From assembly GCF_004027225.2 (NCBI RefSeq), contig NC_044279.2:30420705-30484704 (forward strand): a stretch of DNA of 64,000 nt, written 5' to 3'. The notes below the pieces were generated by a model, which had not been told where the DNA came from, ran no database searches, and saw only the letters and a program-made list of their open reading frames with translations. The position numbers were made by a program, and so were the translations under genes. Source of the DNA: Strigops habroptila. Taxonomy: Eukaryota; Chordata; Aves; Psittaciformes; Psittacidae. Shown here piece after piece: positions 279 to 63,975 of the stretch. The number at the start of each line of letters is the position of its first letter. Positions within the stretch are counted from its first letter, which is position 1.

Positions 279-410
279 CAATGGCAAGTCGGCAGGTAGA
301 CATCGCTACTCAAGGATGGTTCATTGGTCTTATGTGTGCTGTTGCTCTTCTGATCTTGATATTGCTAATTGTTTGCTTCATAAGGAGGAATAAAGGTGGC
401 AAATATCCAG
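279..410 (+). CDS. NRCAM: NRCAM transmembrane exon (partial gene)
   Basis: NRCAM is a single-pass L1-family adhesion molecule of neurons and glia, acting in axon guidance and in node of Ranvier and axon initial segment assembly. This 132-nt exon starts with two bases that complete a codon and then reads [17 protein letters not shown], the end of the ectodomain. A hydrophobic segment of about 21 residues follows (WFIGLMCAV to LLIVCF, roughly codons 13-33), and then the basic stop-transfer sequence [10 protein letters not shown]. The transmembrane and juxtamembrane residues match vertebrate NRCAM as I know it, almost without change. The acceptor is ttctctag (277-278) and the donor is gtaaga (411-416). 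The exon ends one base into a codon, which fits the next exon at 3293. The ATG at 281 is internal and is not a start codon. Confidence 0.96.
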
Positions 411-3292: not shown

Positions 3293-3371
3293 TGAAGGAA
3301 AAGGAGGATGCACATGCTGATCCAGAAATACAACCTATGAAGGAAGATGATGGAACATTTGGTGAATACAG
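3293..3371 (+). CDS. NRCAM: NRCAM juxtamembrane cytoplasmic exon
   Basis: This 79-nt exon encodes the first part of the cytoplasmic tail: V-KEKEDAHADPEIQPM, then KEDDGTFGEY. The first codon is completed with the G left by the transmembrane exon. The acceptor is caatattttag (AG 3291-3292) and the donor is gtgaga (3372 on). The exon ends with the two bases AG of a split codon. That phase-2 end sets which downstream exons can follow in frame: the microexon at 12528 (AG+G = Arg), the last exon at 13121 (AG+T = Ser), and the Gag-like exon at 5146 (AG+G = Arg). The peptide matches the conserved NRCAM tail. Confidence 0.96.
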
Positions 3372-4925
3372 GTGAGAAACTGATGTGGTTTGTCATGTTC
3401 ACTGTTCATATCACACGTACTGTACATAATATCACACTTAATAATTCAGAACTAACTTTTTTTGTGTGTTTACAAAGATTCTGTATCCAGTGTTGTATAG
3501 ATATCATTTCAACCACACCATTAGAAAAAAAAATAAATCCAAGCTTAGAATAAGCCGTTCACTAGGTGAAATCAAAGATGCAAACACAATGCTCTCAAAG
3601 TGAGTAATCTTTATTTACAGACCCATTTTCAGATAGTTAGAATACCAGATACAGTGTCTTTTCAGTTAAGGCACATTTAGCATTATGGTTTTTGAAAATA
3701 CATTTCTAACAGAAGCCTAATAAAGACAATTTTGTGTTACATGACTGGAAAACAAATGCATTTAAAATGGCTGCCGGTACTAACCCCTAATCCAGTAACA
3801 AGCAATTATATACACAGAGGTGAAGGAATGTCATACTAGAAAAGTAAACCTCCCTTTCATGTATTTCAGTACAAGATACATAGCAAGCAGCTTCAAAGCA
3901 TGCAACACAGCACTTATTCCTGGCTCCCTTTATTGTAAATGTGGTCTAGCTGAATCCAGTGGCATCAGAAAAAGCATGCCTTGGCAATCTGTTCATATAA
4001 CAATTATGAGTGTACCTTATTAAATAAGCATTATTTTAGTTGTCATTTTTTCATTAGTACAGGAAATAATGTTATTATTTTATAAATATGTCAATGCCAT
4101 TATATTTTACATGGGTGTTATAATTTTATAGTGTATTCCTGTGTCAAAAGCATTGTAAAAGCCCTTTGTTATTTTGAAGATGTGACATTTACAAATGTAT
4201 ATAGAAAAATTAGTTTTTTTTTCAAGAAGGATCTACTCTGTTGCCATAGCTTCTTCATATAAGGGAACTGTGCGTCTTGATCTGACCGCAATAGATTTAC
4301 AGTTCTGAATGCCAGAGAGCAATTTCTGTTCATTCTTCTTTAATTAAAAAAAAAAACCACAAAAAAACAAAACTCTGTTCTTAGCTTAATGAATTCAGAA
4401 TAGTATTTTATTACAGCGTTAAGTGCATATGGATTAATTAAATTCAGCTCATAAAAAGGGAAGTGTGAAGCATTATTTGGAAGCAGAGGTAAATAAGTAC
4501 TGTATAAGTTCTCCTAGGCAGTCCACTTTGTATTCTCCTTTTTTGCTCCACTGTTTTTTGGTACGTGGAACCTTCAGCAGCAGAAACTGACCTTCATACA
4601 GAACTGTACAAATAATATGACACATTTTCTCAGGCCTAGAAAAAGATTATTCAAGTCTGCTGTCATGTGTAACCTGTAGCAAGGTTTGAATGTATGTCTC
4701 CATATTTAAGTAGCTTGTGTTAATCTATAGAATCATTTAATACTTTATTAAATGTTTTTATAATGTCTTTACCCACCTCATATCTGGTGAATATGGACAG
4801 ATGCATGCCGAGCTTTCATACTTGTTCACATAAAAGAGCTCATCCTATTTAATATGCAAAAACTCCTTTCTAAAATGTATGTCTGTGTAATTAGTCTATA
4901 TTGGGCTTTCCTCTTTTTTCCTTAG
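3372..4925 (+). other. NRCAM: NRCAM intron upstream of the Gag-like insertion
   Basis: This is AT-rich non-coding intron with an A-rich run at about 4346-4372. Near its right end lies a strong pyrimidine tract, cctcttttttccttag (ending 4925). It is a possible splice acceptor and also roughly marks the left edge of the retroelement-derived block. No recognised exon was found between 3372 and 4925. Confidence 0.7.
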
Positions 4926-4926
4926 A
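4905..4926 (+). promoter_or_regulatory. Strong candidate splice acceptor upstream of the Gag-like ORF
   Basis: A long pyrimidine tract (ctttcctcttttttccttag) ends in AG at 4924-4925. Joined to the phase-2 end of the exon at 3371, it stays open for an Arg codon plus 57 codons and stops at TGA 5098-5100. It does not enter the gag frame, which is offset by one base across the A9 run at 5081-5089. Use of this site would give a short alternative tail. Confidence 0.45.
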
Positions 4927-5128
4927 GACAGGGCAGCAGCAGCAACCAGTCAGATTACAGAAGATATCTCTCTGCAGCCCAGCATCACTGCAGCCACTCA
5001 GTTCCCAGTTTGTCTGCCTCACATGGAACTGGTCATGATGCAGTGCTTCTTTCAGGAAAAAGGGTATAGGGTTTCCCTTGAAAAAAAAAGTAATTTTTGA
5101 AAGATCTAGGAATTCGAGTATTTTGAAC

Positions 5129-5146
5129 TTTTTTCATCACTTCAGG
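5129..5146 (+). promoter_or_regulatory. Candidate splice acceptor in frame with the Gag-like ORF
   Basis: A pyrimidine-rich stretch followed by cacttcag ends in AG at 5144-5145, and the exon would start at 5146 with GTCCATG. After the AG left by the NRCAM exon ending at 3371 the reading is Arg-Ser-Met, with no stop until 6986. The tract is shorter than that of the 4925 site, but it is the one that preserves the frame. Confidence 0.55.
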
Positions 5147-6988
5147 TCCATGTCTACTTGGACAGGAAAGAAACTGGACAAGGAAAAGAAAAGAAAAGGT
5201 AGCTGTGCCAGTTCTCCTGAAGCAGACCCTGTATTTACCAAAGCAAAGTCTGTGAGATCTGACAGATCCAACTTCTTCAGAAGGTCAGGGGATCAATACT
5301 CCAGCACCAGATCAGAGACCTCCTACACCAGGAGGAGGGCTAGGCAGTCTTCAGAGCTTGCAAGGGTTAGTTCTGTCTCTGCTTCCCTCTGCCGAGAGGA
5401 AAAGAGGTCAGACGAATGGAAGTACAGGCATGGCTCTAGACATCATGCTTCTGAGCAACAGATAATGGGGTTGGAGGAGGGCTCAGATTCTCAGGCAGGA
5501 CAGCCATCTCCTTTCCAGCAACCCCTCAGCTGCAACTCAATTCGTGGCTCACTGGCAAGGCAGCATTCTTCTCTCCAACACTGGTCCAGCCAGACCCCAG
5601 ACTACAGTTCAGATTCAGAAGACAATCAGAGCTCCTACCACAGGAAGGTAAGACCTTCTACTACTACTCACTTCTCTGAATCTGACAAGAATTCATTAAT
5701 GAAATCTGTAATTTTGCCTGAGTTAGCTGCTGTCTTAAAGGATGCTTTGACAGCAGCCAGACAAAGTATAACTTCTGTGGCACAGGCTAGGTCCCATTCA
5801 GTAAAACATCCCAGGGTACCAATTACAGAAGTTCCAGTGATTCCTCTAGAAGCTAGTGGGAGCAGTTCCCAAACTTTTGAGTCTGACCATATGGACAGTT
5901 TAAAAGATCAAACAGCTTCTGGGAAGGGAAAATCTGAGTCTGTCAAGGCCTTGGAGATTGAGTCATCCCCTGAAGATGGGGAAGTGTCATCTGAGTCTCC
6001 TACAGAAGACCAACAAGTACCAGATGTGCTGCGTAAATTTGACATAGAAAACCAGAATTATCTGTTCAAGCACATAAAGAGAGTGTTAATGCTAAAATCT
6101 TCCAAATCTGAATGTGCTTCAGAAGAACTGTTTCTCCCATCTGAAGAAGGCAAGGTAAATAATGCACTTCCTATCCATTCAACAGTGGAAGACCTTGTCT
6201 GTAAGATTTGGGGTAATCCTGAGGCAAAGCATGAAGCCCCAGCAGTCCTACATAAGCTCTATCCTTTTCCAGTGGATAAAGCTGCTTTGTGGGGGACCTT
6301 GCCTCAAGTAGACAGAGCATTGGTTACTGGTGGTTCTGTACTATCAATACCTGCTAATACTGATGCTTTCCCTAAAGATCTTACTGATAGAAAGGTTGAG
6401 GAAGCAATTAAAAGATCTTTCAAGCTTGTTGCAGCCCAGCTTGCAGTATCTATCTACAGCACTTATGCTTCTAGAGCGTTACTAATATGGTTGGAGGAAG
6501 AACAAGCCAGATTCAGAAAGAAATGGGTCCCATCTGGTGCCATGCAGAGGAAACACAGACTGTGTAAAATTGCAGCTAATTTTATCCATGATGCAGCTGA
6601 GGATTCTCTTAGACTCACTGTCAAAAATATGGCATGCCTCACTGTAGCCTGGAGAGCTATATGGCTACGTCCTTGGGCCTCATTGCTAGATCTAAAATGT
6701 AAACTGCTGTCTTTACCATACACAGGTGGCAAGCTATTTGGTGAATCCTTGGTCCAGATCATAAAGGATTTCTCAGAACACAAACACTTCTTACATCAGC
6801 TGAAAAAAAAGAGCTCCCTTGGAAGCTCTTCATTTTCTTATTCTCACAAGTGTCTGAGCAACTTGCGTTCTCCTCCCAAGTTTAAAGGAGGGAAGGGAAA
6901 GTATAACGTCTCACAGTCATTTCATGCCAAGTACAAAAGGACATCTCACTTTCAGAGAGACACCAGACCATCAAGAGGAACTTTCTAA
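5146..6988 (+). CDS. LAP2-alpha/DIRS Gag-like open reading frame; candidate alternative 3'-terminal exon of NRCAM
   Basis: Open for 613 codons from TCC at 5147 to TAA at 6986-6988; the frame is open back to 5039. The first ATG is at 5150 (numbering below starts there), in a weak start context. Seen: a basic cluster KKLDKEKKRK (7-16); a Ser/Arg-rich, probably disordered region to about 180; an acidic Ser-rich linker (about 265-290); then a helical C-terminal domain (about 295-545) with the DIRS Gag hallmarks YPFPVDK (371-377), LTDRKVEEAIKR (411-422), RAIWLRPW (502-509) and LPYTGGKLFG (522-531); and a basic Arg/Lys/Ser tail. There is no zinc knuckle. Known: the alpha-specific exon of TMPO (LAP2-alpha) and an isoform exon of ZNF451 in mammals derive from DIRS gag. 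Inferred: an acceptor at 5129-5145 (cttttttcatcacttcag) is phase-matched to the NRCAM exon ending at 3371, giving FGEY-R-SMSTW. A stand-alone LAP2-alpha-like gene starting at 5150 is the alternative. Homology is confident; the splicing is not shown. Confidence 0.8.
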
Positions 6989-7120
6989 GATTTGCGTCCT
7001 CCTTTCTCAGAAACTGGTCAGGGTGAAAGACTTGGAAATTTATACTGAATAGCCTTCAATATTTCTGACAAGAAAGTTCATTGCTTAGAAAATTAGTTGT
7101 TTTAAAATAAGATTGAAATT

Positions 7121-7126
7121 ATTAAA
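7121..7126 (+). terminator. Variant poly(A) signal ATTAAA downstream of the Gag-like ORF
   Basis: ATTAAA lies 133 bases after the gag stop codon. A G/T-containing stretch (ggggaggtttctgtc) follows about 60 bases later. Another ATTAAA is at 7592-7597. No AATAAA occurs between the stop codon and about 10 kb. Either variant signal could end a transcript that uses the Gag-like terminal exon; neither is proven. Confidence 0.3.
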
Positions 7127-7213
7127 ATACTTAAATCTTAATGACTAATTAAGATGTTCTAGAGAAGTCATAGCTCTCAATTTTAGGGGAGGTTTCTGTC
7201 ACATTCAATTTCT

Positions 7214-7438
7214 ATGCTTCTCAGTGTTGTTGGGATGGCTTGGACTTGTTTTGCAGTTTTGCGCTCTTCAACGTCATCAAAGAGCATACTTTCTGCAGAA
7301 CCAGCCAACATCAGATTTTCCTGCCATATCGATCTAACAAAGGAATTAATGCTTAAGGAAATGCAGGTGCTTCAGGAACCACAGAATGAACGGGTACACT
7401 ATGTCCCTGTGACTGGAGGAATACGCACTTTTACATAA
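7214..7438 (+). pseudogene. Possible decayed start of a DIRS reverse-transcriptase frame
   Basis: A 74-codon open frame lies about 225 bases after the gag stop codon, where the RT gene of a DIRS element would be expected. Its end (LTKELMLKEMQVLQ, later VPVTGG) recalls the segment before the first RT motif in DIRS elements, which runs like L-x-x-E-x-Q-x-L-L then A-I-x-x-V-P. The match is weak. No RT motif follows and the neighbouring frames are closed. It may be chance similarity. Confidence 0.25.
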
Positions 7439-7440
7439 TG

Positions 7441-10400
7441 AGGGAAAACAGCACCTCTGTAGCTAACTGCAGTACAATCCCAGTGGTTTCCTGAGTTGTA
7501 GAAGACTGAGATAGCAAATTGTGGACAGTCAATGCTTATACCAAGAAACTGCAAGAAATACAAGAAGTACCACAAGTGTGTGTTTATTTAAATTAAAATT
7601 AAAGATTATCTAGAGCTCCAGTTCAGGTCAGTGTATAAAACAGCCTAGATTTTCACGCTGGGCCCTAAATCAAGAGAAATTAAGAAATTTCTGTAGAAGA
7701 CCTGTAGATTCGTGGGTAGGGAGTGACTGCGAGCATTCATTTCTTAGTTAACTTCACAGGAAGTATGAAAGTCTGGCATCTCATTGCAGTCTGCAAAATG
7801 TTCTCAAGAAGATCAATCAGGGCAAGGCAACTGCAGTAGTAGGACTGCTAGTGCAGTAACACAGTATGTTTGCATATTGTGTTGAATTATTTTGCCTTTT
7901 TCCTTCAACATTCTGACACAATATTTTTCCTATAAATTTTTGGATATGCTATGAGAAACTTTCTGGAAATGGTTGGTGAAGAGTTCTGTGATTGCTGGAT
8001 AATCTATTACTCTTCCTTCTTATTCTGGGTTGATTAACAATGAAAATATAATTAGTAACTACAATAGTATTTTTTTTCCTCTTGTAGTTATTCAAGTTCT
8101 ATTGCGGCTTAGGTGTGTTTCCAGGGGGACGTCGCAATGTTTTGTGCCTCAGCACTGTAAATCTGAGCTTGGTCCCCTCTCATGCAAGAGATTATGTCAG
8201 TGAACTGCGTTAAGAATTCTTGTATCTGAATAGTCCGATTGATCTGGCAGTGTTGTTATTGTTTCCTCATTTACACACACATGCTTTCTTTAACACTTAT
8301 TTTAATTGTTGAACATGTGTCACTACTTTTTAAATAAGTGCTTTGATTTTCCTTTGTATATATTCTAGCAGAAATAGCAAATGTGGAAAGTTGGTTGAAT
8401 TTCTCTAAAGCAGATTTTTCTTTAAAATTTTCACAAGGAGTTGGTCAGATTTTTTGACTAACAACAGCTTTTTCAACCCATTGCTATTTAAAGCCAGAGC
8501 TTAATCTCCCAGTTTTTCCGTCTTCTGCCAGGATTGAAGATAGAGTTTTACAGATGCTGAAGAAAAAAAGAGTCAGAAAACTAGTATAGATGTGCCTATG
8601 GTTTAGCTAGATGAGAAATAGTAAAATGTGTTGAAGTCTGGATTGATTCGGGAAAGCATTTTTCACCTGCACAATCCTGTCAATTTAGGAGCATGAGCAG
8701 AAACCTGTTAGGTGTTAGGGCAGAGGTTCTCCTGGATCATGCAGGGCAGCCCTGGTATAAGGTACTTCTGTGGCTTTATGTGACTGCTTATACTTAAACA
8801 TTTCTGGGCTGTTCACCTGAGGGCACAGAAGAAGGAATTTACTGCCAACAGTTTTCATCTTCTGCATCCTCCTGCGTCCAATAGCCGAGAATGCTTTAGC
8901 CATTTTGTTTGGTTTATGCTGCCTTTCTTCTGACAGTTGTGTTATAAGGAAAAGTAGTATATTGCTAACCATATATTGAGTCTTTTTGCATGTCCATGAA
9001 TGTGGCAAAGTTTGGTGGGAACTAGTTGCCTGCTGGACTGCAGAGCCATCGTAAAACTGTCCTCCCCATTCTGACTGGTTGCTGCATGTACCCATATCTA
9101 AGGAAGAAAAATTGAAAGGTTGAAAGAAGAAAGGACATTTCAAGGTACATATTTTTTCAATAACTGATGAGCTTGTGAAATGGAATTACTTTTTTAAAAA
9201 AATAAGTTTGTACTTTGCACTTACACATTATTGTCACGTCCGTACTTTCATCTCTTAACCATTAGCTGTAAGCTTGATATGTTTCATTAAACTAAGAAGA
9301 AAAAGAAACACATATTCACGCATTAGCAATTGTTCATTTAAAATACTTTAATCATGCTTTTAGAATATGCTTTGACATTAAATCTGTTCTTACTAAAAGG
9401 GCAAGAAATGTGTGTGGTATCTACGAGTACTTACCAAAATGACTTCTACGTGTCAGTCTTCATTGAGAAACTTTCATCCTTAAAAAGCTACTAGTATGGA
9501 ATTTATTTGTAAGACAACAAATAGTAAAAGTATCACTACACTTAACTTTCATGGCTGTCTAATCTAAATATAGAACCTATACCCATTCTCACTTCTTGTT
9601 TTGTTTCCTGCCACTACTTGTTGTTTCACTATTAATTCTATGTACTGCATACATGACACTTTTCAAAAACTTCAGTTTTCCACTATAATCTTAGTCAACC
9701 CAATTTGTACTCTATTTTTTATTTCATGATATTACACTAAGTAAGTATAAAAGTCAGCAAGCAAAACCACAAACAAAAACTGAAAGTAATTGCAATCTAT
9801 CCTGGTTGCATTTTGGAATAGTTTTATGAACAATTGTAAGCAAGATTAGCAAATCTTGCAGATACTGTGTCAAAATTTATGGCTTTGACATGTTTTTGTA
9901 ATATAGTATTATATATTCTACAGCCTAAAGTGTTCAATAGTTCTTTAGGCATCCATATTAATAATGCAATTTGGCTTTTGCAGTTTGCTTCTTGGCAGCA
10001 AACAGAAAATATATTCATTTCCCTAGAGTCCTTTCTCAATTTTGCACCTCCAGGGTAAGAAAGTGCTGTCCAAAACATTGATATCTTTACTTTTTTTCTC
10101 TCTCTCCTGCTTGTTTTCTGTTGGGTTTGTTTTTTGTTTTTTTTCTTTCTTCCTTGATTTCTTTCCCTTCCACCCAAAACATTGTATTCATCTAATACAA
10201 GAGTCATAAGCCAGTTTGATAAAGAATAAATAGTACCACGGCGTATGTTTCCTTTGCCTGAACAAGGAGGGGAAAGCACCCTGGATAATCCCACTTGTTC
10301 TTCCACTGCCAGAGGTTTGGCAGAACTTCTTTCTGGACTTGAATAATGCAAAAAGGGAGGGAATCCCGAGGTTCAGATTTGATTTTGTATCTGCTGTAAT

Positions 10401-12527
10401 GGTGCTCTCACACCAGCACTCACCTCTGTGCAGGTACACTCCTGGGTAAATCTACAGGTTGGTTTGTTTGGTTTTAATTATGCAGACAGTAGAATCTGCA
10501 TCCTTACTAAAATGTAGGAAAATCACGGACACAATGCAACTGTGTAAGTATTTCTTCTTTGTTTGCCCTATAAATAAACTTTGTTTACAAAAATTTCAAA
10601 CAAGAAAACCCTAAGAGCAACACAAAGCAGAAGTTCCTGTACCCAGATTTATCTAAGTTAGAAATTAAAATCAAGATTTTTATTGGATTAAACACAAAAA
10701 TGTGGACATTTTTAATACAGTGGTGGTGTATTATTTGTATACTGTATTATCCAGACTAGTGAATTACACTGGGTAGGGTCACACTTTAGAATATTTGCAC
10801 AGTTTCTTGACCAGTTGGAATGTGGTACAAATGTAATTTGAATTTATTTGGCATAAGCAATTATGAAGTTGTTTGCCTAAAATGAAACAGCAAACCATAT
10901 GTGCAGTGTTCTTTACTTCATGGGATTACCCAGAAAGTATTAACCATTGCAGGTCATTCTTTATTTGGGGAGTACATCCACTTACTATTTCGAAGTGAGG
11001 GTCTGATCTTCATTTGGCTTGAATAACCTGTCTTCATGGCTCTAATGTCCTCTGATGAGGGCAGTGGAGTAACTGCATTGTGTGTGATTTTTACATACTC
11101 AATTCTATCTTCAGCCTTTTAAATATAGAGTCCTTCTGAAATGAACTTTCTTCAGTAATGTCTCTGTAATCTGCTTGTGTTTGCAGTGTTCTAACATTTT
11201 CACTTTGCTGCTGGATGCTTGACATTTTGGAGTAGTGTTCTTTTAAATGTTACTAGCCTATATGTTTACAGTATCAGTGAGCACAGAAGATCAATGATAT
11301 GATATTTATCCTTGTGCCATGTACACAGCAATAACTAAAAACAAAGTCAAGACCGATGCAGTCAAGTTTAGAATTTTTGCCTTTGTGTATTTTGAACAAG
11401 AAGGTTTTCTTACTTGTTAAAAAGATAGTCCTACCACTTCTTTCTTGTGTATGCATAGAGGGATAAAATTTCTGGTATGCTTTTTCTGTAAGTTTATGCA
11501 TATTAGAGGTATACTTCTTTTAGAGTATAGAGGTATACTTCTTTTAGTGGTAACTTCAAAAGCCAGAAACGGTGATGAGATGAGGAGAAGCAACTTGATG
11601 GAAAATTGGTGTGATGGTTTTCTAGCAATGGTGAAATGTTTCTCAACAGGGCACGATATAATCCGTGTGACCTTCTGTATGCCGTATAGATATGATTCCT
11701 CCAGGTGTTCAAAGATATTAATTAGAAAAAATAGAAAATACATTGTTGGAAGAGCTAAGATATTTGGGTTTAGGAATTAGGTAAAATAATTTGCTGAATA
11801 TATATTCAGTCTTAGTATTGTGGATATTGTAAAATATGTTTTAATTTCTTTGCTATTCTATGCATGTGTCTTTATATTTTCTGTAAACTGGGAGTCTTTA
11901 AATAAAAACCAAAAATCACTAACTCATTTGTACCCTATATGCAAATGAAGTTATATGTTCTATTTAAGAAAAGGTAAATAATTGCACAAAGAAGTGCAGC
12001 TGGCAATAGTGGGGTTTAATTCAAAATGCTTTGGAGCTGCTGCTGAGATCTGTATCTTGAAACTGAAGTAAAGGATTCCAAAAAGAGCCCAACTACATCT
12101 GTTTCAAGAAATGCAAGCCTACCACAACTGCAGATTTATGTGAGGATGCTGGTTGTGCTTGCAGCTTTTCCACTGGCAAGAGAAAGACCACAGTACTTTG
12201 CTATGGGGATCTCTCCTCCCTTTCTTTCCATTTCCTTTTGTCCTCCAAATCTCCAACATCACCGTCAGAACATGTTACCAGTTATGGATTAGGATAGGGA
12301 GGTCGATCTGATAAATAATGAAAAAACGCTAAGCATGCTCTCAATTCCTCGGCTCTAGCTACTGTAAGCTAAATTGTTGCTTTACCTGTAATACAGTAAA
12401 TGTTTTAGCAATTTTAAGAGCAACTTATTATTGATAAAATACTGATCACTATCAGGATATGGACTTTGCTTTTCTTCTTAGGCTATTTTCATTTGTTTCT
12501 TCTGCACCCTTTTAATGGAATATGTAG
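7441..12527 (+). other. NRCAM: NRCAM intron downstream of the Gag-like block
   Basis: This is AT-rich intron with no recognised exon before the microexon. It holds T-rich/G-T-rich runs (about 10105-10160 and 10457-10478) and a 24-bp tandem duplication (11505-11548). Open frames on the minus strand at 8715-9143 and 9824-10351 match nothing I know and have no exon-like borders. Confidence 0.75.
11505..11548. repeat. 24-bp tandem duplication
   Basis: The unit agaggtatacttcttttag plus agtat occurs twice head to tail. The second copy starts at 11529 and diverges after about 19 bases. It is a local slippage duplication inside the NRCAM intron. Confidence 0.85.
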
Positions 12528-12539
12528 GTCTCTTGAAAG
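12528..12539 (+). CDS. NRCAM: NRCAM 12-nt microexon encoding RSLE
   Basis: The exon GTCTCTTGAAAG is flanked by tatgtag (acceptor AG 12526-12527) and gtaaggt (donor at 12540). Between the AG from 3371 and the T of 13121 it reads R-S-L-E-S, inserting RSLE after FGEY with the frame preserved. L1-family members are known to have a neuron-specific 12-nt RSLE exon. Together with the preceding Tyr it makes YRSLE, a tyrosine-based signal for AP-2 and clathrin endocytosis. The upstream region has a pyrimidine-rich tract containing UGC (tttcttctgcaccc, TGC at 12503-12505, 22 bases before the exon border), the arrangement bound by the neural splicing factor SRRM4. The site matches what the family predicts in size, phase and sequence. 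Confidence 0.94.
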
Positions 12540-13120
12540 GTAAGGTTGAAAATTGCAAGTCTGGCCTGCATTTTGTAACAAATTATTTGAAATGCAGCAC
12601 TTTTATTTTCTTTATACTAGTAAAAAAAAAAAAAAAAAAATCAGTATATTTCATTTAACCAGATTCATTCTTCATTCATGTTCAAGGAGTCAGAGAAATT
12701 AAGAAGTTTAACAGACTAACTTTGCGGCACATCATAAGCTCGTTACTTTGGAGAACAAATAATTAATTTATTTCTTTAACTTTACAACCCACTTTTTAAT
12801 GCTTGCAGTTGCATCTAAATTGCTTCCAAGCCAAGGGCACAGGTCTTATCATTGAAAAGTCATGCACGATGGGGGAATAAAAAAAAAAAGAAACCGCAAC
12901 ACCCCCGCCTCCACTGAAGACATTCTCTGTTTAAACCATTCCTACACCATGCATTCATGTCAACTGCATCATATTGATTTGTTCTACAATGTGATGTGGG
13001 TTTACTAAAGGATTATAGGGCTGCACACATGCTTTTTATAAATTCTGCATGCATGGCTGATTTTGTCCTAGTATATTATACATCAGTTAATTCCTTTTGT
13101 TTGTTTGTTTTTGTCTCCAG
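12540..13120 (+). other. NRCAM: Last NRCAM intron
   Basis: This 581-bp intron runs from gtaaggt to ttgtctccag. It contains a poly(A) run at about 12621-12639, a shorter one near 12880, and a T/G-rich polypyrimidine region before the acceptor. Confidence 0.9.
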
Positions 13121-13358
13121 TGATGCAGAGGACCATAAACCTCTAAAAAAAGGAAGCCGGACACCTTCAGACAGAACTGTGAAAAAAGAAGATAGTGATG
13201 ATAGTTTAGTTGACTATGGAGAAGGTGTAAATGGTCAGTTCAATGAGGATGGCTCCTTTATTGGACAATATAGTGGCAAAAAAGAGAAAGAACCTGCAGA
13301 AGGAAATGAAAGCTCTGAGGCTCCTTCTCCTGTAAATGCCATGAATTCATTCGTGTAA
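13121..13358 (+). CDS. NRCAM: NRCAM last coding exon (ankyrin-binding and PDZ-binding tail)
   Basis: The exon starts with TG, completing Ser (AG+T), and reads [18 protein letters not shown] and onward to the C-terminus NSFV, with TAA at 13356-13358. It contains the L1-family ankyrin-binding motif FIGQY within the sequence [11 protein letters not shown]. Tyr phosphorylation of that motif releases ankyrin G. The final SFV is a class I-like PDZ ligand used for SAP-type scaffolds. Ser/Thr-rich acidic stretches ([15 protein letters not shown]) are typical phosphorylation regions. The acceptor is ttgtctccag (AG 13119-13120). All residues agree with the conserved NRCAM tail, and I see no break. Confidence 0.97.
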
Positions 13359-14890
13359 CCACAGAACTTGATCCCCTTGTATCTTCCATTTGTTTAAAGC
13401 ACTTGTACATCCTCCTCCTCATACTATGAACATGCAGGTAACGGAGCTCCTCACCACAAGATATTAATGCTGTGAGAATATGCAGGTCAATACAGGTTTA
13501 CAGCATAATGACACATTAAGTGGTATGTTACTATGAATCAAAAGACAAAATTCGAATTTTGTTCAGAACTTGAGTATTTTTACTTTTTTTAAAAGGAACT
13601 GACACAAACAATAACATCAACTTGTAATTTTGTTTCCTGTTGAAAATACAGTAAAATGCATGATAAAAAAAAGAAAAAAAAAAAGCTACACAATTCACAG
13701 ATAAACTCACATACACTATAAAAACATGGTTTGACAATTTGTTATGCAGTCCTCAGCTGAATCCCTGGATATGAATTCCGTTTTCATTGTCAGAGTGTTA
13801 TAGTAGTATTATATAGAACTTCAATGTCTTTGTGGACATTGTTGTGAAATTGGTGACTTAATGTCTAGCTATCATATGTCTTTTTTGCAAGACAGTTAGG
13901 AACAGTATGTACAGTATATAATTGCTAAATGATTTAAGTATGACACTTGCATTTGCTGATGCTTAATGAGACCCTATTATCTGCTCTTCGCTCCTATTAC
14001 TTTATAGCCTTTTTAATCTATCAAGTATTACAGCAGTACAGTGTTCTATTTTTACATCAAAATACATTGAATTGATTTTAGGGCATAAAAGATACGCATT
14101 GCAATGCATTTTGGAATTTGTACAGTCACGGGGAAAAAAAAAAAAATATAAAAATGAGAGAAAATATTCCAGAAAACACAGGGCAAAATACATTCAGTGC
14201 CTTTATACAATATGCATTCCATAATGTGCTGTACTACTAAATCAGTTGGTGCAGTAAACTGTGATTAGCGGACTACTATCATTGCCAAATAAAGTAAAAA
14301 TGTGAAGAAGACAAGTGTTATGAAACTGTTGTGCTAAAAATTGAAGGTTTTAAATATTTTAAACTACACAGAAGAGAGTATGATTTTTTTTTTCCCCTTT
14401 AAAAATAAAATCAGTGCTTTCTAGACAGTTCCAGCACAACATGTTTTCATGGCCTTAGAAAATTATAAATGAAATAAAACAAAAACAAATCCAGAATTAA
14501 ATTATTTACTAACACAGCAAGGTACAAGCTCTTGTAAAATAAATTGTTAAACACCCAAACCAGCTGACTACACCAGTGAGAGTGCATTTCCCTCTGTGTC
14601 CTGGCCTGATCAGTGTGGCAGCTTTGTAATTATCTACACCCTGAAGCAGTGTCGGGGTTACTGCTGGGAACCACAGATCTCAATCTGACAAGTGCTAATA
14701 TGGTTTAGTGGTAAAGGGTTACCATGATTGGTTACAAAATCATTTTCTCGCATACTATATCAATCAAATGTTTACCTCCAAATATAAATTTTTATAACAA
14801 CCTATGGTTGAAGGAATGCTCAGTTTCATTTGCCAATAAATTGGTTTTTCATAACTTGCATCAAGTTTAATTTTAAGTAAGCTTTTTATA

Positions 14891-47846: not shown

Positions 47847-49089
47847 TATAATCTAACCTGTTTACCTTAATATGCTCTGCTATTCAGTCTTTATTACCCA
47901 TTTTTTCTGCACCTTTGGTATCACTCACTTTTCTCCCTGGCATGCAGCCTCCATCCCTGTTGCTTTGAGAGCGCACCCGCAGTGACAGCTTTTCTCCCTT
48001 TCTGCATGTTTGAGTATGCATACAATGCTCAATATTGGCATAAGACGCAGGAATTAAAGACCCAAGCCTAAATCTCCAACTCTGGTATGATTAAATGAGA
48101 AACTATTGGGTTTTTTTTATGAACTGTCTTTTTTATCCTTGAACAAGCTCCTGACCCATATGCTTGGGAGAGTAAGATCTCACTGTAATCGACATAACGG
48201 TATTTGCTGCAGTCTGCAGACTGTAAAGCCATAAGGTCAGTGGTATCTTGTGTTTTAGAGGAGCAAGTTCAAATCCTTTCAGACATGCAAGAACGACCCG
48301 AGATGACAGCTACAAGTGAAGCACTTCTGACTTCCTTCCGCTCCTCCTTACCTCAACTTGCTGAAAAAACCCCAGTCCTCCAGATGCCTCCTACTGCAGA
48401 GACCTGATTTCTCATATGGGAAAATCTATGTGCTTTGGTGTTACTCCCAACATAAAGAATTGATCACGGTGCAACAAGGGGCCTCAAGCCATCAGGCTGA
48501 GGGCCTCAGACTAGCTGACTTTCCACTCTCTGGTCCTTACTGCCGTGCAGGTGGCATAACCTAGTCAAGTGTGCTCTGCCAGCTAGTGACCACGTGTCAT
48601 CTGTCACTCTCTGTAAATACAGTGTCATGGTTGCAGCCCCTGCTCCCCCCAGAAGTTGTGTTTCACGTACAGTGGGAACTCATGTCTCAGAGTTTTGCAG
48701 GATCCCTGTTTCATCCCTCGTGAGACCTTCCTGCAGCTCCTGACTCCTCAGTGGGTCATTTCTCCACTCTGGCCCTGTTTGCTTTCCTCCAAGCAGGTAT
48801 GCAGCAAGCCCCATACTTACTTTGGGACAGGGCACCTTCCTGCCTGTGCACTCACACAGCCCTTTTGCCTTCTTTTCCTCTGGGAGTTTTGACTTTTGCA
48901 GCAATTTACAAAGTGGAAAATGCACAGGACTTGGCTGATGCTTTGAAAATAAATATCTAGCCTTTGCGGTAATGAGGAAGAATTAAGAAATATGATCCTG
49001 CATAGAAGATGCAAAGTCCAGAAAATAAATCGAGGCTTAAGAAGAATCCTATAATTTCAAAATTATTCTCCTCACTTGGAAGGAGGGTA
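47847..49089. other. Intergenic flank upstream of the CpG island
   Basis: GC content rises towards the right. No exon is recognised; overlapping open frames on both strands show no family resemblance. Confidence 0.6.
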
Positions 49090-49653
49090 CCAATTGAGAG
49101 TTTGGACCCGGCGTTACTTGGCACACCTCCCGAGGGTCCCGAGCACAGCTGCACCCTGAGCTCCTCTCGCCTGCGCCTCTTGTTCTGCGGTCAGTGGGTG
49201 CGGGAGCAGTTGAGGGACACGGCCGGGGTACGAGCAGCAGCTTCGTTTTGGGCTTACCCCACTTTGGGCCATGTGCAGGGCGCACCGTGCCTGTGGGAGT
49301 ACGTGTGTGACAGCCGCGCTGCACATGCTCCCTGGACAGCGCCGGGTGCTGTTCCAACTGCGGTCTGTCAGGGAGCGGGACAGCCGCGGCTAGGGGTGCC
49401 GAAACGCCCTCACTGCTCACCTCGCTCTGTGGTCTGACGGGGCGGCCCTCCCGCTGCCTCTCAGACGCCCGTCCCGCACCCCCACCCCCGAGACCGCGCA
49501 CGGCACGCAGCCAGGGCTGCCGGCGGCGGCTCCCCTTCGCCCGCAGGGGCCCCGCAAGCGCCTCGCTCGCTGTCCGCGCAGCGCTGCCCCCACCTGCTCC
49601 CGCCGACCCCTCCTCACCTCTCCCCGTCACGATTCCCCTCGCGGCCGCGCTCG

Positions 49654-49800
49654 CTCGCGCGCGCGCGCACGAGTGACATCACCCTGTCCAATCAGCCGCC
49701 GCCGCCGCTCCCCGCGCCCCGCTCGGCCCGGCGGCCCGCGCGCGCGGCGGGGAGGAAGAGGAGGAAGGGGGTGGGCGCGCCGTGCGCGGCCGGCTGTCAG
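49654..49800 (+). promoter_or_regulatory. Core promoter elements: CRE-like site, CCAAT box, GC boxes
   Basis: TGACATCA at 49674-49681 is CRE/ATF-like. A CCAAT box (CCAAT 49688-49692, in tccaatcag) lies 7 bases after it. GC-rich sequence follows (ggcggggagg and gggggtgggcg). An alternating CG run (about 49656-49668), which could form Z-DNA, lies just upstream. There is no clear TATA box. The order of elements suggests transcription to the right, starting around 49.75-49.80 kb, though CpG-island promoters are often bidirectional. Confidence 0.5.
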
Positions 49801-49891
49801 GCAGCGCGCGGTGCCGAGCCCAGCCCAGGTGTGCGCGGCCGAGGCGGGGGCGGCGCGGGGTGACAGCCGGCTGCGCAGCACCACTGCACAG
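49780..49891 (+). other. Possible non-coding first exon
   Basis: The GC-rich segment ending cactgcacag/gtacgg offers a consensus-like donor (exon end 49891, GT at 49892-49893). Another potential donor is cagcccag/gtgtgcg near 49828. No ATG with a coding frame of recognised type lies before the donor, so the exon would be 5' untranslated. The start coordinate is a guess. Confidence 0.3.
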
Positions 49892-49930
49892 GTACGGTAC
49901 GGTACGGTACGGCACGGCTCGGCTCGGCTC
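49891..49930. repeat. GGTAC/GGCTC pentanucleotide repeat at a predicted donor site
   Basis: Four GGTAC units are followed by one GGCAC and three GGCTC units, 40 bases in all, without interruption. The array begins exactly at the putative exon 1 donor, so it offers four successive GTACG donor-like sequences spaced 5 bases apart. Confidence 0.9.
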
Positions 49931-50640
49931 GCTCCGCAGCGGCGTGTCCCCTCCACCCGCTTTACAAGCGCGAGTTAAAGAGCCGCCGCTGCGGCGCTGC
50001 CTCCTCCTGTGAGGAGAGAGGGCAGCCCCCCCCCGGCAGCCGGTGGTCCCGGGGAGGGGGCACCGCCGCGGCAGGGAGTCAACTTTGCTGGTGCGGCCGG
50101 GGCAGCTCGGGCAGGTGGCGGTGATGGGGGGCTGCGGGCGACGCGGCCCCTCGCCCCGCGGGTGGGCGCGGGAGGGCCCCGAGCTCCCCACCCACGGCGC
50201 GCGGGCGTACTGGGCCTGGGTTGGCGGGGCCCGCTCCGGTGAGGCGGCGGGGGCGGCTGTTACACGGCGGCGGTGGGGGGGAGCTGCCCCCTCCCGGGGC
50301 GCCTGCACGCTGCGGTCGGGATTAATCGTGTCGTGTCCTTCCCCCCGCCCCGGGCTGCCGAAAGTGGGACGCCTTCCGTGGGTAATCCTCTCGCGAATGC
50401 GGTCCCCTCGCCGCCGCGGGCATGGCGGGGGGAGCCGCGGCTGCTGAGCTCCGCCGGCCGCCGGGAGGGGCCGCAGAGAAAACCGTGTTCCCGGTGTCTT
50501 TGGTTGCTGCTGGCGCACCTCTGGATTTTGGCAGCATGTGGAAAGATGTATCGGTACCGCGTTTCTCCAGCGCATCGTTTCGGGAGCGCTGTTGCTGCGC
50601 GGCTTGTCTTCCAGAGCAGCATGCACGCCAGGGCAGCTAG

Positions 50641-53600
50641 GCTCATTGACTTGTTCACGTTTGGGGTGTATCTAATCAGCTAGAAAGGGATTGGGTTTTT
50701 TTTTTTTCATTACAACCTTCTTGCAGTAGAAATAACAGCGTTTCGCTTTGTTTTCCCCTTGTAAAATGCTAGTTTTACTTCTTTTCTGTGTCACTTTCCC
50801 GTAAATGGCAGTAATTCAGGGCGGCTGTAGTAACACCTGCTGGTGAGAACAGAAATACCGCTTGCGGACATTGCCGAGGCTGAGCTCTGCTAGAAAAGTC
50901 ACCTGAAGGGGCTGGGCGAGCCGTGATCCTGTGCCTCAGCTGCGAGCTGAGTGAGGGGTTCTTCAGCAATTCCATCCGCTCTGTGAAGCGCTATTTAATT
51001 CTGCTTATAAAACCTACCGGAGATTATCTATGTAGTTGATCAACTATGGTCCATTTAGTAATGGAAGTAAACTATGACCTGTGAGCTACCGATGTTTTCA
51101 GTGGTTATTACATTAAAGCACATGAAAAAGTATTTAAAAAGGTTCTTCAGGGATTTAAAAATAAACCATTATGTAATTACTGGGTGTGTACAATTTAGCC
51201 AAAAATTGCCTAAACTACAGCCACCTGTGCAGAGGTGGTTGTATCAAAGGAGGTGTTAACAAATAACTTTACTTAGGATCAGTCTTTTGTATAAAATTAC
51301 TTTTAAATCAGTAAAAAATAATGAACACAACTTGAAATTGTGTAAGAGCGGGGGAGAGCTTTCTGAAATAACCTAAAGTTATAAAAATTCTCAGTTTCTT
51401 TTCTGCTAGTAACTTTTACATGTAATTCTCATAATGCAAATACTATACCAATCCCTATGAAAGGATCGTCTTTTGTCCATGCTGTATAAAACTAATAATT
51501 GACCAAATTTTCTTAAATAACTTTTGGTAATGTTGCAGGAGCCTATTGGTAGTATGGAGCTTTTGTTTGTTTCTTTACATTTGAATGTGTATCATCAGCA
51601 TCAGTTGCTTAGTTTTTTGTATTTGTGCTTGGAGATAGTTGACATTGCATCAAAATATACCTTATCCATGCTTAAATTTTGCAAAAAGTAAAATAAGCAG
51701 TTAAGCAAAAACATTCCTGTATTGTCTACAGTGCTGTTCTAAACCAAGAAGAGATTTCCAGTTTTACTTCTGACAGACACCAAAATGTAATGCAACCTCA
51801 ACTCAGCTGCATGATAATGCAAAGAACTTACTTGATGTAAGATTCTGTTAAATCAAGTACCTTAAACACCTTCTGTAGAAGAAATCCACATTATTAAGGT
51901 TATGGAACAAAGAGTTTCTAAATGACCTTTTAAGCATGTTTTTCTGATACTGATACTTAACTACATGATCACATAATATCTTTTTTCTACAGGAACCCTG
52001 TCTCATTCAGTGCATGGGATGGATGGAGCTCACTTAACACAATTCAGTAGTTTTCATTGATCACTGTGTGAGCCCATGATTTATTTACACCACATCACTC
52101 AGCTCTGCTTTGAAGATAGAACTGATAACATTTGTATGGACTTGGCTAAAGTGCTTATCATCATGGGATTGGAATGCCTTGCAAATAATCATTAGTTTAC
52201 CAAACACTATCTAAGATGAGACAAGACTTTTACAGATAGTGAATAGAGGCACAAAGAGGGTTAGGTTAAAAGTATTAATTCATTTTTGGCATCCAGTTTG
52301 AAATTTCTACAATTCTTGTAAATATGATTGCTCAAATTACAACTGCCACTGCTTTTAGTAAGTCCTGAGTGCTTCACACATCTGTGAATGTATCTGCAGA
52401 GTAGATGGGAGAAAGAGGAATTCACAGTTAATTCATAGTTAAACTAGGGAAATTTTGGGTTAAATGCTGTGCATGACAGTAAGAGGAATGGGGGGAAACC
52501 ACAAAAGGGAGGGCTTTAATCGTTAAAGTCTTTGTGGCATATTACAGAGCCCCTGTCCCTTTTTCCTTCTGCAAGCCCTGCCTCATTCACTGCACATATT
52601 CCTATTTGTCAGTAGGCAAGACAGGAGTCCTACCTGCATTAGGCTCTGTATCATCTTCTGTGCATTCTCATCATGTGCACTAAATGAGGAGAGATAAGTT
52701 TGAAGAAGCAGTGCATGCTTTTATTTAAATATTGTATAAAAATGTACGCACTCAAGGGAAGTGAATTATGGTTACACAGACAACAGTGTTTGTCATTTTA
52801 CGACTTTTGAGTGGTTAATTTAGTAACTTTAATAATATTCTTTCATGTTGCCTGTGGGGTAAAATGTGTGTACATGTCCCTATGTATTTTATTAAAACCT
52901 AGAAAACTAAACTTACGGAAATATAAAAAAAACTCCAAACCCAAACAAAACAAGAAAACAGAAAATTTTCAACTCTCAAAGTAAATTTCTTCTTGTGTTA
53001 CTGTATTGGACCCACAATGGCTATCAACAGGATTGGAAAAGCTGAATCTTTTGCAGAAGCTCTTGAACTCCTAGCTTCATTATGAGTGGTGGCATTACGA
53101 GAGTGCAGTCCCTTTTATACACCAGTGGTAGAGCAGAATGGCATGGTTTGTAGTGCATTTGCACAGGTACTTCTAATAGTGGAAAATGGCAAAAGACTCA
53201 AGTCCTTTCTACTCTCTAGGCTTTAGAGAAAATATATCATGGTGGATGAGGGCTCATTTGTCACTCTTCTGCAAGCACAGTCCTTTTCACTTCATCCTTT
53301 ATATGTATCCTGAGAACAGCCTCCTTATCTTCCTGTAGCCAGTCTCAGTCTTCATTTTTTTAGATATTCATGGTCTTGACTATTCCAAATTTGTCTTAGT
53401 CTCTTGTCTCAGCCAGTCCTATTTGTCCTTGCTTTTTGCCTGTCAGCATCATTCCTTCCATTTATTTTTCTTTATTCCCAGGAGTTTTCTTGTCTTCATT
53501 TACCACATCAGTCCAGTCTACTCTCCTTCCAGTCTCTAGTCACTTTTACTGTGCTTTTACCTGACACTGGTCTCGCTCTTCGTAGACTGTAAAGTGGCTT

Positions 53601-54879
53601 TTGTTCTTCTGCACTGAAGCAACACAGTAGTTTTCTTCTAAGAAGTTGGTTAGGTTTTTGGTACATTTTTAGAGGTACAGTAAAGAGTGTAGTGTTAACT
53701 CAAAGCTTGGCTATATTAATGGTTTCAAACCATAGTCACTGAAGTTTTTTGAAGTAAAAAGATGCTTTTGAGGAAAGAAGAAAAAAATTGATGTGTTTTT
53801 CCTCCATTGTTCCTTTTAAAAAAATTGAATTCTGGAATTAATTTTTCAACAAGACATGTAACAATGTGTTTCTATAGAGGCATTGGCAGAAAGCAAGGAC
53901 AGACAGGACACTTACTTTACCAAAGTTGTAAGTAGTGATAAACATTAGAAATGCTGAGCAAATTAAATAGTTCTAATTATGAAGAGACATCAGTAATTTG
54001 TTTAGCTCTGCTTAGTTTTGGAGGGTTCTGGGCTGGCAAATAAAATAACTGATGATTTGGGTTTGCTTTGGGTTTATAGTTTGGGGTGTTGGTTTTTTGT
54101 TGTTTGGTTTTTTGTTTGTTTGTTTCCATTTTAGTTAAGGTTTTGTCACAGCTGCTTTAGAGAAATACTTACAAAAAGAAGATGTAAGCCTCTCACTGAA
54201 TTGAGATCTGAATGAAACTGTGACTGTTGGTGTTACCACTGCACATAGTATTTTGTTTGTATAAAGTAGTCCTTTTGATGTGATAAAAATACTATCTGCA
54301 ATAACTTAGTAGCTCTCATGTCTGAAATGGGAGTCATGGACGAGTTATGGTTTGCACCACAGACTGAATATTAAAATTAATGTGAGACTGTGTAAAAACA
54401 TTTTCATATCTGTGGAATCTTCTTAAGATGTCATGTGAGCAGTGCAGTTTGAAATGAAGAAATATAAATACACATATTTGACAAGTTCTTTGCTTTTATT
54501 TATGTACCTGCTTTCATAATTGACACATAGTGGCCAGATTATGTGTTGTTACCATACAAAGGGTTAACTTGTAGCAAAGAGATAATGATTTAGTCATAGG
54601 ATGCATGTTCTTTTTATAGTTTTATTGGAAACATCCTGCTTTACCATAGACAATTCAATTTTCTGCAGTTTAGCAAAGTAGTCGAACACAAGTGTAACTG
54701 TAAGTTGCTGTTGATTCCTGGTCAAGCCAGTGTTCAAAGCTTGTATTAGTTTTTGCAGGAAATTGTTCTTCTTACCCTTAAAATCTGAGTAATGCACTTC
54801 AGCTTAACAACTGCTAAATTTAATTTGTAAAAATCAAGGAAAGATGTTGATATATCCAGTTCAAAGCATCAGAAACTGA
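50641..54879. other. Probable first intron or flank of the CpG-island gene
   Basis: AT-rich sequence with no recognised coding exon. A good acceptor (atcttttttctacag, AG 51991-51992) lies before a 60-base stretch with only a very short open frame from an ATG, so a second untranslated exon is possible but unsupported. G/T-rich low-complexity sequence lies at about 54055-54128, and C/A-rich sequence at about 52921-52965. Confidence 0.5.
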
Positions 54880-55052
54880 TTACTCAGAGAATTGTGCAGT
54901 CTCCCTTTCTTTGAAGTGTTCAGGGCTCAAATCGATAAAAACCCCTGGCCCACCTGATCCGATGTCTTAGCTGACCCTGTTTTAAAGCAGGAGATTGGAC
55001 TGCAAAACCTGCCTGACATCGCTTACAACATGGATTATCCTATGACTTTGTC
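54880..55052 (+). mobile_element. CR1 LINE 3' fragment
   Basis: It matches the CR1 3' end in plus orientation: gagaattgtgcagtctccc, ctgaccctgttttaaagcag, gagattggactgcaaaacc, and a degenerate ATTCTATG-type end (atcctatgactttg). It is moderately diverged and 5'-truncated. Confidence 0.75.
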
Positions 55053-57136
55053 CTATCATTTTCTAAAAGGGAGAAACATCAATATACAGTCTGAACAGTA
55101 CTTCCTGAAAGGGGAAGGATAGCCTGTGCCAACAGTCAAATATTTTAGTGTCTGAATGAAATACTTAACGTTACAGACTGAATTTGGGTTGTCTTTTTTT
55201 TTTTTTTGTAGTTTTCATTGGTAATTGTATTTAAATGCACCACTAGATCTGCTGTGTGCATTAGGTAGGCTTGATGTTGTATTATAAGTCTGTTTTATGG
55301 GAGATAATAGCAGGATTCAGTAGCTTGGTCAGTTAATGTGGGTATGTTGTAATGTGTTGTAGTACTTCAGTAATGATACCTCTTCAGTTTCGTCAGAAGA
55401 CAGGATCCCTTCTGTTAATACAGCTGGTTTATATTATGTAGCATATTTTTCAAACAAATCTCACACACTTTAATCTGAATGTAAATATTTAAAACATACA
55501 CTGGGATGTTGATAAGTGAACAGGCTGTTAACGTTGTCTCAATGTTGTACCTAGTTAAGGTGCTAATCTTTCTGGGAATGATCAGTGCTTGCTAAATGAG
55601 GGAGATAAGTAGGTGTCCTGTCTCAAGCAGGGTGATGGGACAACAGAAGAGTGATGGTTCTGACATGTCAGCTGCAGTGAGATGGGGAATTTTGAATTTA
55701 CCACAATGGGGAAATAAGTCCTCATCGTTTTAAATTTCTGTGTTATTTAAACCCAATGATTTTTGGGAGTGCCTGTTTATAATTCAGGTTATAGCTGATG
55801 CAGTGATGGACACATCACTTTTTTGAAAGCTATCTTGATTCTATGGATGTCATAAATTCACCTTTCACATATAGTTTTGTTTTTTACTCTTGTTCTTCAG
55901 GCTTTCCATGTTCAAGCCTAATCGCAGCTTAGGAGAAGTAAAATAATTTACTTTGCTTCTTGCGTGAGAAAATAGAAGCAGCCTTTATCCTAAATATTTC
56001 TTATTGAAGACTTCCTTCTGGATAGCTGGATTTCCAACTAGTATGCTTTCTTTGAAACCTGAAATAAAGCTGACTTTGTTTCGATAAAGGCGGTCAGTTG
56101 TCTTGCCAGCTACTCACTGGTAAGACTTGAAATGATGTTGAAAAGCAATTAAATATCTCTATGTTGAAGATCAAACCTGTATCTTCCTTTACCAACCATT
56201 ATTAGTGAACTTCTAAAAGTGCCTGGTAGAATAACTACCTGTTAATAAGGCTTGCTGTTTCTAGAAGGCAGAAGACTGACTGCTGTTGCCAGTAATACTT
56301 TTAGCTAAAGTACTGCATTTTTCACTATGAACATTTTTGATCAAAGCGAGAATCATGAAGATTAAGATAAATGGGAGCAGATAGAAATATACATTTTCTG
56401 TTTTCTATATTTCTTGTGAAGAATAAGGCCATCACTCTTTTGTACTATTGCCAGAAGCCCAGCTCTCCTTTCATCAGCTGTCTACAGTTTAGGTCTTTCA
56501 TAAAAATGAACTTCAGAATATTGAACAGTTTCCACTTCAGATTTTCATTATAAAGGAGCTCCAAGGGACACCAGCTGCTGTTGAAATAGATCTTGGGAAG
56601 TCAGAAATTCTGAAATGCTTCTTTTTCCCTGCTTCTTTTCCCTTTCTTAACTCTCTTTGCTCTTGATTTTTATTATGTTTTTTCCCCTCTAACTTTTCCT
56701 GACTGTAATTTTTCAAATTTTTTTAAACATATTAATGTTTCGAGAAAGTATCCAGTTCTGCCACTTATACTAGATGCAGCAATGATATTCCTGGAAAAGG
56801 CAAGAATCAGGCCATCACAATGGGAAATTAGACTACAGCTTGACTGTCTTGGGTTGTTCTGGAAAGTCATGAACTAAAGACAGATTAATGTGAAAGTTCA
56901 GCATTATCTGAGCTTAAAAAGTTATGTATGGATTTCTTTTGGATTGCTTTAATTTCTTTCTTGACTCTTTCTATGCAACACCTAAGAACTGTGCCAGCTA
57001 TTGAAAAAAAACCCCAACGATTAAGGAATAGTGGAATAGCGCTAATACTGGCTTGGGTTCTGAGCAACTGGGGTGATGGCTCTGTTATGCTTGCTTTGAA
57101 CATCTTCCATTTTAGTTTTGCATTAGGTCTTGTCAG
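55053..57136. other. Non-coding, AT-rich
   Basis: No exon, RNA gene or recognised repeat except a T run at about 55194-55208. Confidence 0.55.
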
Positions 57137-57282
57137 ATGGATACTTTGGTTTTGTGGTGGTTGGGGTTTTTTAGTTTTGGGGTTTTTTTTTTTGTTTGTT
57201 TGGTTTTTTGGGGTTTTTTGTGTGTGTGTTTTTTGTTGTGTTTTGGTTTGGTTTTTGGTTTTGTTTTTTTTTTTTGGTCAGT
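57137..57282. repeat. G/T-only low-complexity tract
   Basis: About 145 bases almost free of A and C on the plus strand, made of TTTTG, TTTGG and GGTTTTTT blocks with a (GT)n core. The open frames through it on both strands are artefacts of this composition. Similar but shorter tracts occur near 970, 10110, 10457, 18370, 54055 and 62757. Confidence 0.9.
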
Positions 57283-63200: not shown

Positions 63201-63975
63201 GTTCTCATTTAGAGCATCTAAAAGTGCTTGTAAATTCTCTTTTCCTGGAGTTAGGGAGTGAGTTAGGGAGAGACAGATCCCAATGAAAACTTACTGGAAC
63301 ATCTTCTATTAATTAAGCTTTTATTATGAATAGAATCAAGCCAGTGTTATTAAAGCAGATAACTGTTAGGACAGGCCATTTGCTTATTCCGTCCGATTGT
63401 TCTCACATCCACAGGTACACACTGTCACATGCAGTCACTCACAGTCACCTGAGTGGAGGACAGCCCAGCTCTTTAGTCACAGGGGAGATCTGCAGTGGCG
63501 TGACAGTGCCTTCCAGGCAGGCATGCAGAGTCCCTCACAGGATCCCTGATTTCCTCAGCAGCACAGGCAGTGCTGGTGCCTCTGCCAGCACGCAGCTGCC
63601 ACTGCCACCTCGGATGTGGTCTGAGTTGCACAGCCCTTCATTGACATTAGCATGGCCTGATGGTCCTATGCATGCTCAGCAGACGCTGTGTCTTCCTTCA
63701 TGTCTTAAATGCAACGGGATGACAAATCTCCGTAGCTTATTAGCATTTGGGTAGACTTTTACACCCTTTTTCTTGGCATGTACATTTGCACTTTCTAGCC
63801 TGTTGGTTTCTGGTGGCTGTTACTCACCTGCACCTGTAGTGTCCATTTACAGAAACACTCAGGGGCAGGGTTTTTGTGACAACACAACTCTTGGACAACT
63901 GGTACTTCAGTGTGAAACTGCAATGGGAAGACACTGACCTGTGAAACATTTTTCTCAACTTTCTTTCAATCCTAG
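57283..63975. other. Non-coding sequence, no recognised exon
   Basis: AT-rich sequence. A T run followed closely by an A run (about 59022-59058) could fold as a weak hairpin. A T-rich tract lies at about 62757-62809. A short stretch at about 62491-62525 (gagaatcatag then cagctgaaagaagac) weakly resembles the complement of a CR1 3' end. The frame at 63326-63754 (plus) is open for 142 codons but resembles no known family. Confidence 0.5.

Follow-up and report, generated by a model that had tools for sequence, protein, structure and literature searches.

The 64,000-nucleotide window analysed here (Strigops habroptila, assembly GCF_004027225.2, contig NC_044279.2, positions 30,420,705 to 30,484,704 of the forward strand) contains the 3' exons of a gene that we take to be NRCAM and, within one of its introns, a long open reading frame (ORF) resembling the gag of DIRS retrotransposons. 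The gene name was assigned from characteristic exon motifs, together with a match of the last coding exon to positions 35-86 of the Pfam family Bravo_FIGEY (E 5.8e-15). The NRCAM exons follow one another in the order transmembrane exon, FGEY exon, RSLE mini-exon and FIGQY/SFV last exon, and the gag ORF comes after the second of these and ahead of the third, on the NRCAM sense strand (Table 1). An original prediction, made from the letters of the window, had named NRCAM as the host gene of a gag in sense orientation, and this is borne out by the transmembrane exon, the RSLE mini-exon and the Bravo_FIGEY match of the last exon.

Table 1. Features of the NRCAM 3' region and of the intronic gag insertion, in window coordinates (position 1 is the first nucleotide of the window; a slash marks a splice boundary; contig C3 is NC_044279.2).
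Feature	Position	Strand	Details
NRCAM transmembrane exon	279..410	+	hydrophobic helix in translation; acceptor CTCTAG, donor CAG/GTAAG; leaves G
NRCAM cytoplasmic exon, donor of candidate junction	3293..3371	+	encodes VKEKEDAHADPEIQPMKEDDGTFGEY + AG; ends FGEY
Inverted repeat left arm, probable decayed DIRS left inverted terminal repeat	4906..5007	+	holds strong frame-incompatible acceptor AG 4924-4925
Candidate 3' splice acceptor	5144..5145	+	TTTTTTCATCACTTCAG/G; G5146 would be the first base of the exon
Candidate alternative last exon, coding part (DIRS gag ORF)	5146..6988	+	ATG 5150, TAA 6986-6988
LAP2alpha domain	6161..6769 (C3:30426865-30427473)	+	PF11560 positions 31-230/234; translated-frame residues 339-541
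Candidate poly(A) signal ATTAAA for gag exon	7121..7126	+	called by sequence only
Inverted repeat right arm, probable decayed DIRS right inverted terminal repeat	9016..9118	-	
NRCAM 12-nt mini-exon RSLE	12528..12539	+	GTCTCTTGAAAG, yields FGEYRSLESDAE
NRCAM canonical last coding exon	13121..13358	+	SDAEDHKP...FIGQY...NAMNSFV, then stop; skipped in candidate isoform

The gag frame is open from 5147 to its TAA (one Ser codon followed by 612 codons from the ATG), and it lies in a stop-free stretch of 649 codons that starts at 5039; no other such stretch in the window, on either strand, is as long. The product matches the Pfam family LAP2alpha (PF11560) with E 2.3e-12 and 47.3 bits against a cut-off of 25, and the PDB chain 2v0x (LAP2 isoforms alpha/zeta) with E 8.5e-12, so the ORF is not a chance open frame; the same two matches sustain the LAP2-alpha/DIRS gag-like identity that it had first been given. 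Judged by sequence, this ORF encodes a DIRS gag that is nearly complete and includes a LAP2alpha domain, its length of 612 aa being in agreement with the approximately 650 aa expected of DIRS ORF1. The gag part is Ser-rich; a KKLDKEKKRK motif directly past the candidate junction precedes the LAP2alpha domain, and a basic tail follows that domain.

The FGEY exon ends in a good donor (CAG/GTGAG), and its final AG together with G5146 forms an Arg codon, such that the fused frame reads FGEYRSMSTWTGKK. On re-reading of the sequence, the coordinates of the original prediction, its acceptor at 5144-5145, the phase match and the open frame to 6986 all held. Acceptor strength was scored with a simple weight matrix built from generic splice-site frequencies and applied to the 681 AGs of the 9.7-kb intron. 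The acceptor at 5145 ranks eighth, with a score of 6.0 compared to 5.8 for that of the canonical last exon, and among the top eight it alone leads into a long frame, of 614 codons compared to 58 for the next best. The chance of finding an acceptor this good in the right phase within the 111-bp open stretch is about 3%, and the combination is therefore suggestive rather than strong. The only candidate poly(A) signal near the end of gag is the ATTAAA at 7121; the nearest AATAAA downstream is at 10225.

The same intron offers other splice sites that NRCAM might use. The acceptor at 4925 outscores 5145, and a donor scoring 6.3 is found at 5647, and these could give either a truncated NRCAM with a 58-residue tail or a gag that serves as an internal exon. 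Entry at 4925, although good by sequence, reads through 58 residues to a TGA at 5098 without reaching the gag frame; 4925 was rejected as a gag acceptor because of its wrong frame, and the alternative exon start at 4926 offered by the original prediction falls with it. The donor at 5647 was rejected as the end of an internal gag exon, since an exon 5146-5647 is out of phase with the downstream NRCAM exons. As neither form preserves the 612 gag codons, we consider uses of this kind very improbable. A peptide across the FGEY-RSMSTW junction had also been proposed as a test of the fusion. The Arg at the junction is a trypsin site, so the tryptic peptide is common to the RSLE isoform and not diagnostic, and the proposal stands only with Lys-C, for which the predicted peptide EDDGTFGEYRSMSTWTGK spans the junction.

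The gag ORF is flanked by the two arms of an inverted repeat, 4.2 kb apart, as expected for a shrunken DIRS element. When 4906-5007 is aligned with 9118-9016 reversed, 69 of 101 aligned bases are identical, with 3 gaps in 104 columns, and the raw score of 28 lies above the maximum of 22 reached when the right side was dinucleotide-shuffled 200 times. The arms are probably the decayed terminal repeats of a DIRS element. Just upstream of the gag acceptor there is also an inverted A/T-rich pair of 22 nt (95%, 4205-4226 and 5077-5098), which could be due to chance or could be a piece of the old element's end structure. A stop-masked Pfam scan of 4501-13370 in six frames found no reverse transcriptase (RT), RNaseH or recombinase, only LAP2alpha, Bravo_FIGEY and a sub-cut-off match to DUF2515 (13.7 bits vs a cut-off of 24.3), and the recovery of the first two indicates that the scan works. 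Separate Pfam scans of the plus frames of 6989-9118 and of 9119-13118 likewise gave no RT, RNaseH or recombinase. A complete DIRS element would carry RT/RNaseH and a tyrosine recombinase downstream of gag, and these were not found here.

The analysis also covered the rest of the assembly (1,148,577,936 bases in 89 contigs). The whole-assembly searches score only those candidates that pass a loose first look (nine for the protein search and two for the LAP2alpha profile, all of which were scored), so strongly decayed copies may be missed. A protein search with the gag ORF gave a single match, its own locus, and in the PF11560 profile search only this locus exceeded the cut-off. A second, sub-threshold LAP2alpha trace lies on another contig (C2:4449508-4449681, minus strand; 20.1 bits, E 0.24), in a 113-codon open frame that reaches 21.1 bits in Pfam against the cut-off of 25. 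It shares 18 of 59 residues with the gag ORF as well as a GG-LFG ending (tblastn E 1e-4, calculated for a 3.2-kb piece only), and because of these identities, the shared ending and the Pfam score its most likely identity is that of a fossil DIRS gag in decay. A search of the assembly for tyrosine recombinases (PF00589) gave nothing over the cut-off and two weak places. One of these, C6:46711487-46711771, has four in-frame stops and is possibly a decayed tyrosine recombinase transposon; the other, in the region of C3:78471164-78471361, has a 521-codon frame with a DUF3504 match (E 2.1e-15) and is presumably a known Crypton-derived host gene. A DNA search of the assembly with 4880-5146, containing the left arm, gave no second copy, and the left arm and downstream stretch showed no match at E 0.01 to the places on C2, C6 and C3 (DUF3504). 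IMG/VR and GTDB contigs scanned with the gag ORF returned 19 and 116 pattern matches, respectively, with no confirmed relative among them, which is the outcome to be expected of a gene from a vertebrate. Within the limits of candidate-based searches, DIRS looks extinct in this assembly apart from the gag ORF. The human genome holds decayed DIRS protein fossils predating amniotes, according to PMC9004415, so DIRS relics as such are unsurprising; an unbroken ORF is surprising.

The gag ORF has 8 CpGs in 1842 bases (observed/expected 0.09, compared to 0.18-0.25 in the surrounding non-coding stretches), and is therefore probably old and long exposed to CpG decay. The arms are 32% different, which corresponds to approximately 0.21 substitutions per site per arm if they were alike at insertion. 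In simulations of neutral decay the ORF was without a stop in 101 of 400 cases at 0.02 substitutions per site, in 14 of 400 at 0.05, and in 0 of 400 at each of 0.10, 0.15, 0.20 and 0.23. If indels that break the frame are taken to occur at 8% of substitutions, the probability of an intact ORF at 0.2 is near 2e-18, a figure that hinges on the indel assumption and on the arm divergence, although its direction does not. An old-looking ORF that is unbroken where simulated neutral decay breaks it points to retention by selection, and domestication of the gag under selection is well supported by these single-genome proxies. The simulations also show how a young ORF may stay intact unused (the 101 of 400 at 0.02, indels apart), and the gag could in principle belong to an unselected, unused DIRS copy that is intact merely through youth or recent arrival. 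This sits poorly with the divergence of the arms, the unrecognisable remainder of the element and the low CpG content of the ORF, with the assembly searches, in which neither a further intact copy nor a recombinase above the cut-off turned up, and with reports on birds: DIRS is given as not detected in birds in PMC5753468 and, citing other work, PMC9210276, and likewise for chicken in PMC5006616. We regard such an origin as quite improbable.

A selected gag need not be part of NRCAM. It may be a domesticated gene nested in the NRCAM intron, driven by a promoter of its own, for which the former left terminal repeat is a possible source, and translated from ATG 5150, in which case the phase match would be a coincidence. 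Many domesticated gag genes are stand-alone, this ORF does carry its own ATG, and the coincidence is not extravagant given the chance figures for phase and acceptor. The context of ATG 5150 is weak, with T at both -3 and +4, and the lack of both usual context bases mildly favours a fusion over stand-alone translation; furthermore, there is no CpG island nearby (observed/expected 0.18 in 3372-5145), and the two closest precedents are last-exon captures (PMC4495291). A nested gene is unlikely in our view, if far from negligible. We consider it reasonably probable, from the sequence features described, that a DIRS gag was captured as an alternative last exon of NRCAM and that the gag has been kept by selection. 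Of the capture proposed in the original prediction, the NRCAM identity, gag origin, orientation, phase and unbroken ORF all stand, and the 4926 alternative, which yields no gag frame, does not.

Several observations weigh against capture as a last exon. The candidate NRCAM-gag isoform is a prediction from DNA sequence. Two acceptors that NRCAM really uses, at 3292 and 12527, are equalled or bettered by 172 and 361 of the 681 AGs, which means that the matrix discriminates weakly, and seven intron AGs outscore 5145, including 4925 upstream, 5518 within gag and 7010 just past gag. No match to a YTNAY branch point was found at -20 to -50 of the acceptor, a phase match alone has a 1 in 3 probability by chance, and the poly(A) signal is of the weaker ATTAAA form. 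The arms may already have differed when the element inserted, in which case the insertion would be younger than estimated, and the case for selection is built on the proxies of one genome. Finally, a single-sequence structure prediction for the 220 residues of 6131-6790 was all helical, but its mean predicted local distance difference test score of 41.6 is too low for the model to be of use. We infer the splicing, protein and function of the NRCAM-gag form, and use of the gag as a last exon appears likely.

Capture of the gag by NRCAM would have begun with the insertion, in sense orientation, of a DIRS1-like retrotransposon into the intron that separates the FGEY exon from the RSLE mini-exon. 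The RT/recombinase part and the terminal repeats would then have decayed, with selection retaining the gag ORF. Splicing of 3371 to 5146 and cleavage past the ATTAAA at 7121 would produce a transmembrane NRCAM with a gag tail, in which the juxtamembrane part is kept and followed by the 612-residue gag with its LAP2alpha-type domain at the end. The fusion would lose Bravo_FIGEY positions 35-86, and with them the ankyrin-binding FIGQY and the C-terminal SFV, and the FGEY/RSM junction would create YRSM, a putative YxxPhi signal of AP-2 type. In YxxPhi signals M can stand for L, and the LAP2alpha domain is dimeric in LAP2alpha. Our guess at a function is a receptor form that acts without ankyrin, self-associates and is readily endocytosed. 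That a bird neural receptor should have a tail made of an almost complete gag, complete with YRSM signal, self-associating domain and KKLDKEKKRK as a nuclear localisation signal-like motif, is a tentative suggestion that we ourselves find doubtful. If true, gag-tailed NRCAM could cluster the receptor without ankyrin, and shedding followed by intramembrane cleavage could free the gag tail for a nuclear, LAP2alpha-like role, leading from adhesion to chromatin or lamina.

Elsewhere in the window, a CpG island (49000-51000; GC content 0.67, CpG observed/expected 0.93) lies approximately 36 kb downstream of NRCAM. A six-frame Pfam scan of 50001-63999 for neighbouring genes gave nothing over the cut-off, with a TMEM247 match only at E 0.07, and no Rfam match at gathering threshold was found anywhere in the window. 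One of four CR1-tail patterns occurs twice in the window, and the other three are absent. Outside it, a nuclear mitochondrial segment with COX1 was seen on contig C25 at about 23.97 Mb, with 12 in-frame TGA and one in-frame TAA when read in the standard code; it is partial, with only the tRNAs for Gln, Cys and Ser.

In both TMPO and ZNF451, a DIRS gag was captured as one large 3' exon with a poly(A) signal, and Abascal et al. (2015) proposed that the acceptor and the poly(A) signal came with the insert itself (PMC4495291). By analogy, the NRCAM-gag case fits this picture. Like TMPO LAP2alpha (PMC4495291), the candidate has a LAP2alpha domain of DIRS ORF1 origin in a single large 3' exon, with an in-phase acceptor, a candidate poly(A) signal of its own and skipping of the downstream host exons. 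It differs in that the NRCAM host is a membrane adhesion receptor, whereas LAP2alpha is nuclear and has no membrane segment, in that the gag part is 612 aa compared to a 506-residue exon product, and in coming from a bird, not a mammal; probable terminal-repeat remnants are still visible at NRCAM, and the NRCAM form is so far a prediction from the genome. ZNF451-LAP2alpha of eutherians (PMC4495291) likewise arose when a gag of this kind was captured separately as a last exon, with a 497-residue exon product and reported peptide evidence; the NRCAM case differs from it in host gene and lineage. According to PMC9210276, Xenopus DIRS elements have an ORF1 of about 650 aa with a LAP2alpha domain, similar in length to the NRCAM gag, with RT/RNaseH and tyrosine recombinase downstream of it and inverted terminal repeats on both sides of the element; the NRCAM element, unlike these, has no recognisable RT or recombinase, and the searches gave no further intact copy. 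For L1, PMC4810158 describes how the RSLE mini-exon and the preceding tyrosine form YRSL, which binds AP-2 mu2 and drives clathrin endocytosis. The gag exon would similarly give Y-R-S-hydrophobic after the same exon as the RSLE mini-exon of the L1 family, but as YRSM with a new tail and no return to the ankyrin-binding tail. We found no description of an NRCAM-gag isoform in the open-licence literature, a scope outside which the 1990s Nr-CAM cDNA papers probably fall, and this agrees with the original prediction, which knew of none. If the capture is real, NRCAM would join TMPO and ZNF451 as the third gene to use such a gag as an alternative last exon; within the literature searched, no earlier case has been described from a bird or for a membrane receptor. 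It would also suggest that DIRS gag is predisposed to capture by an acceptor just before the ATG, a nearby poly(A) signal and a foldable domain.

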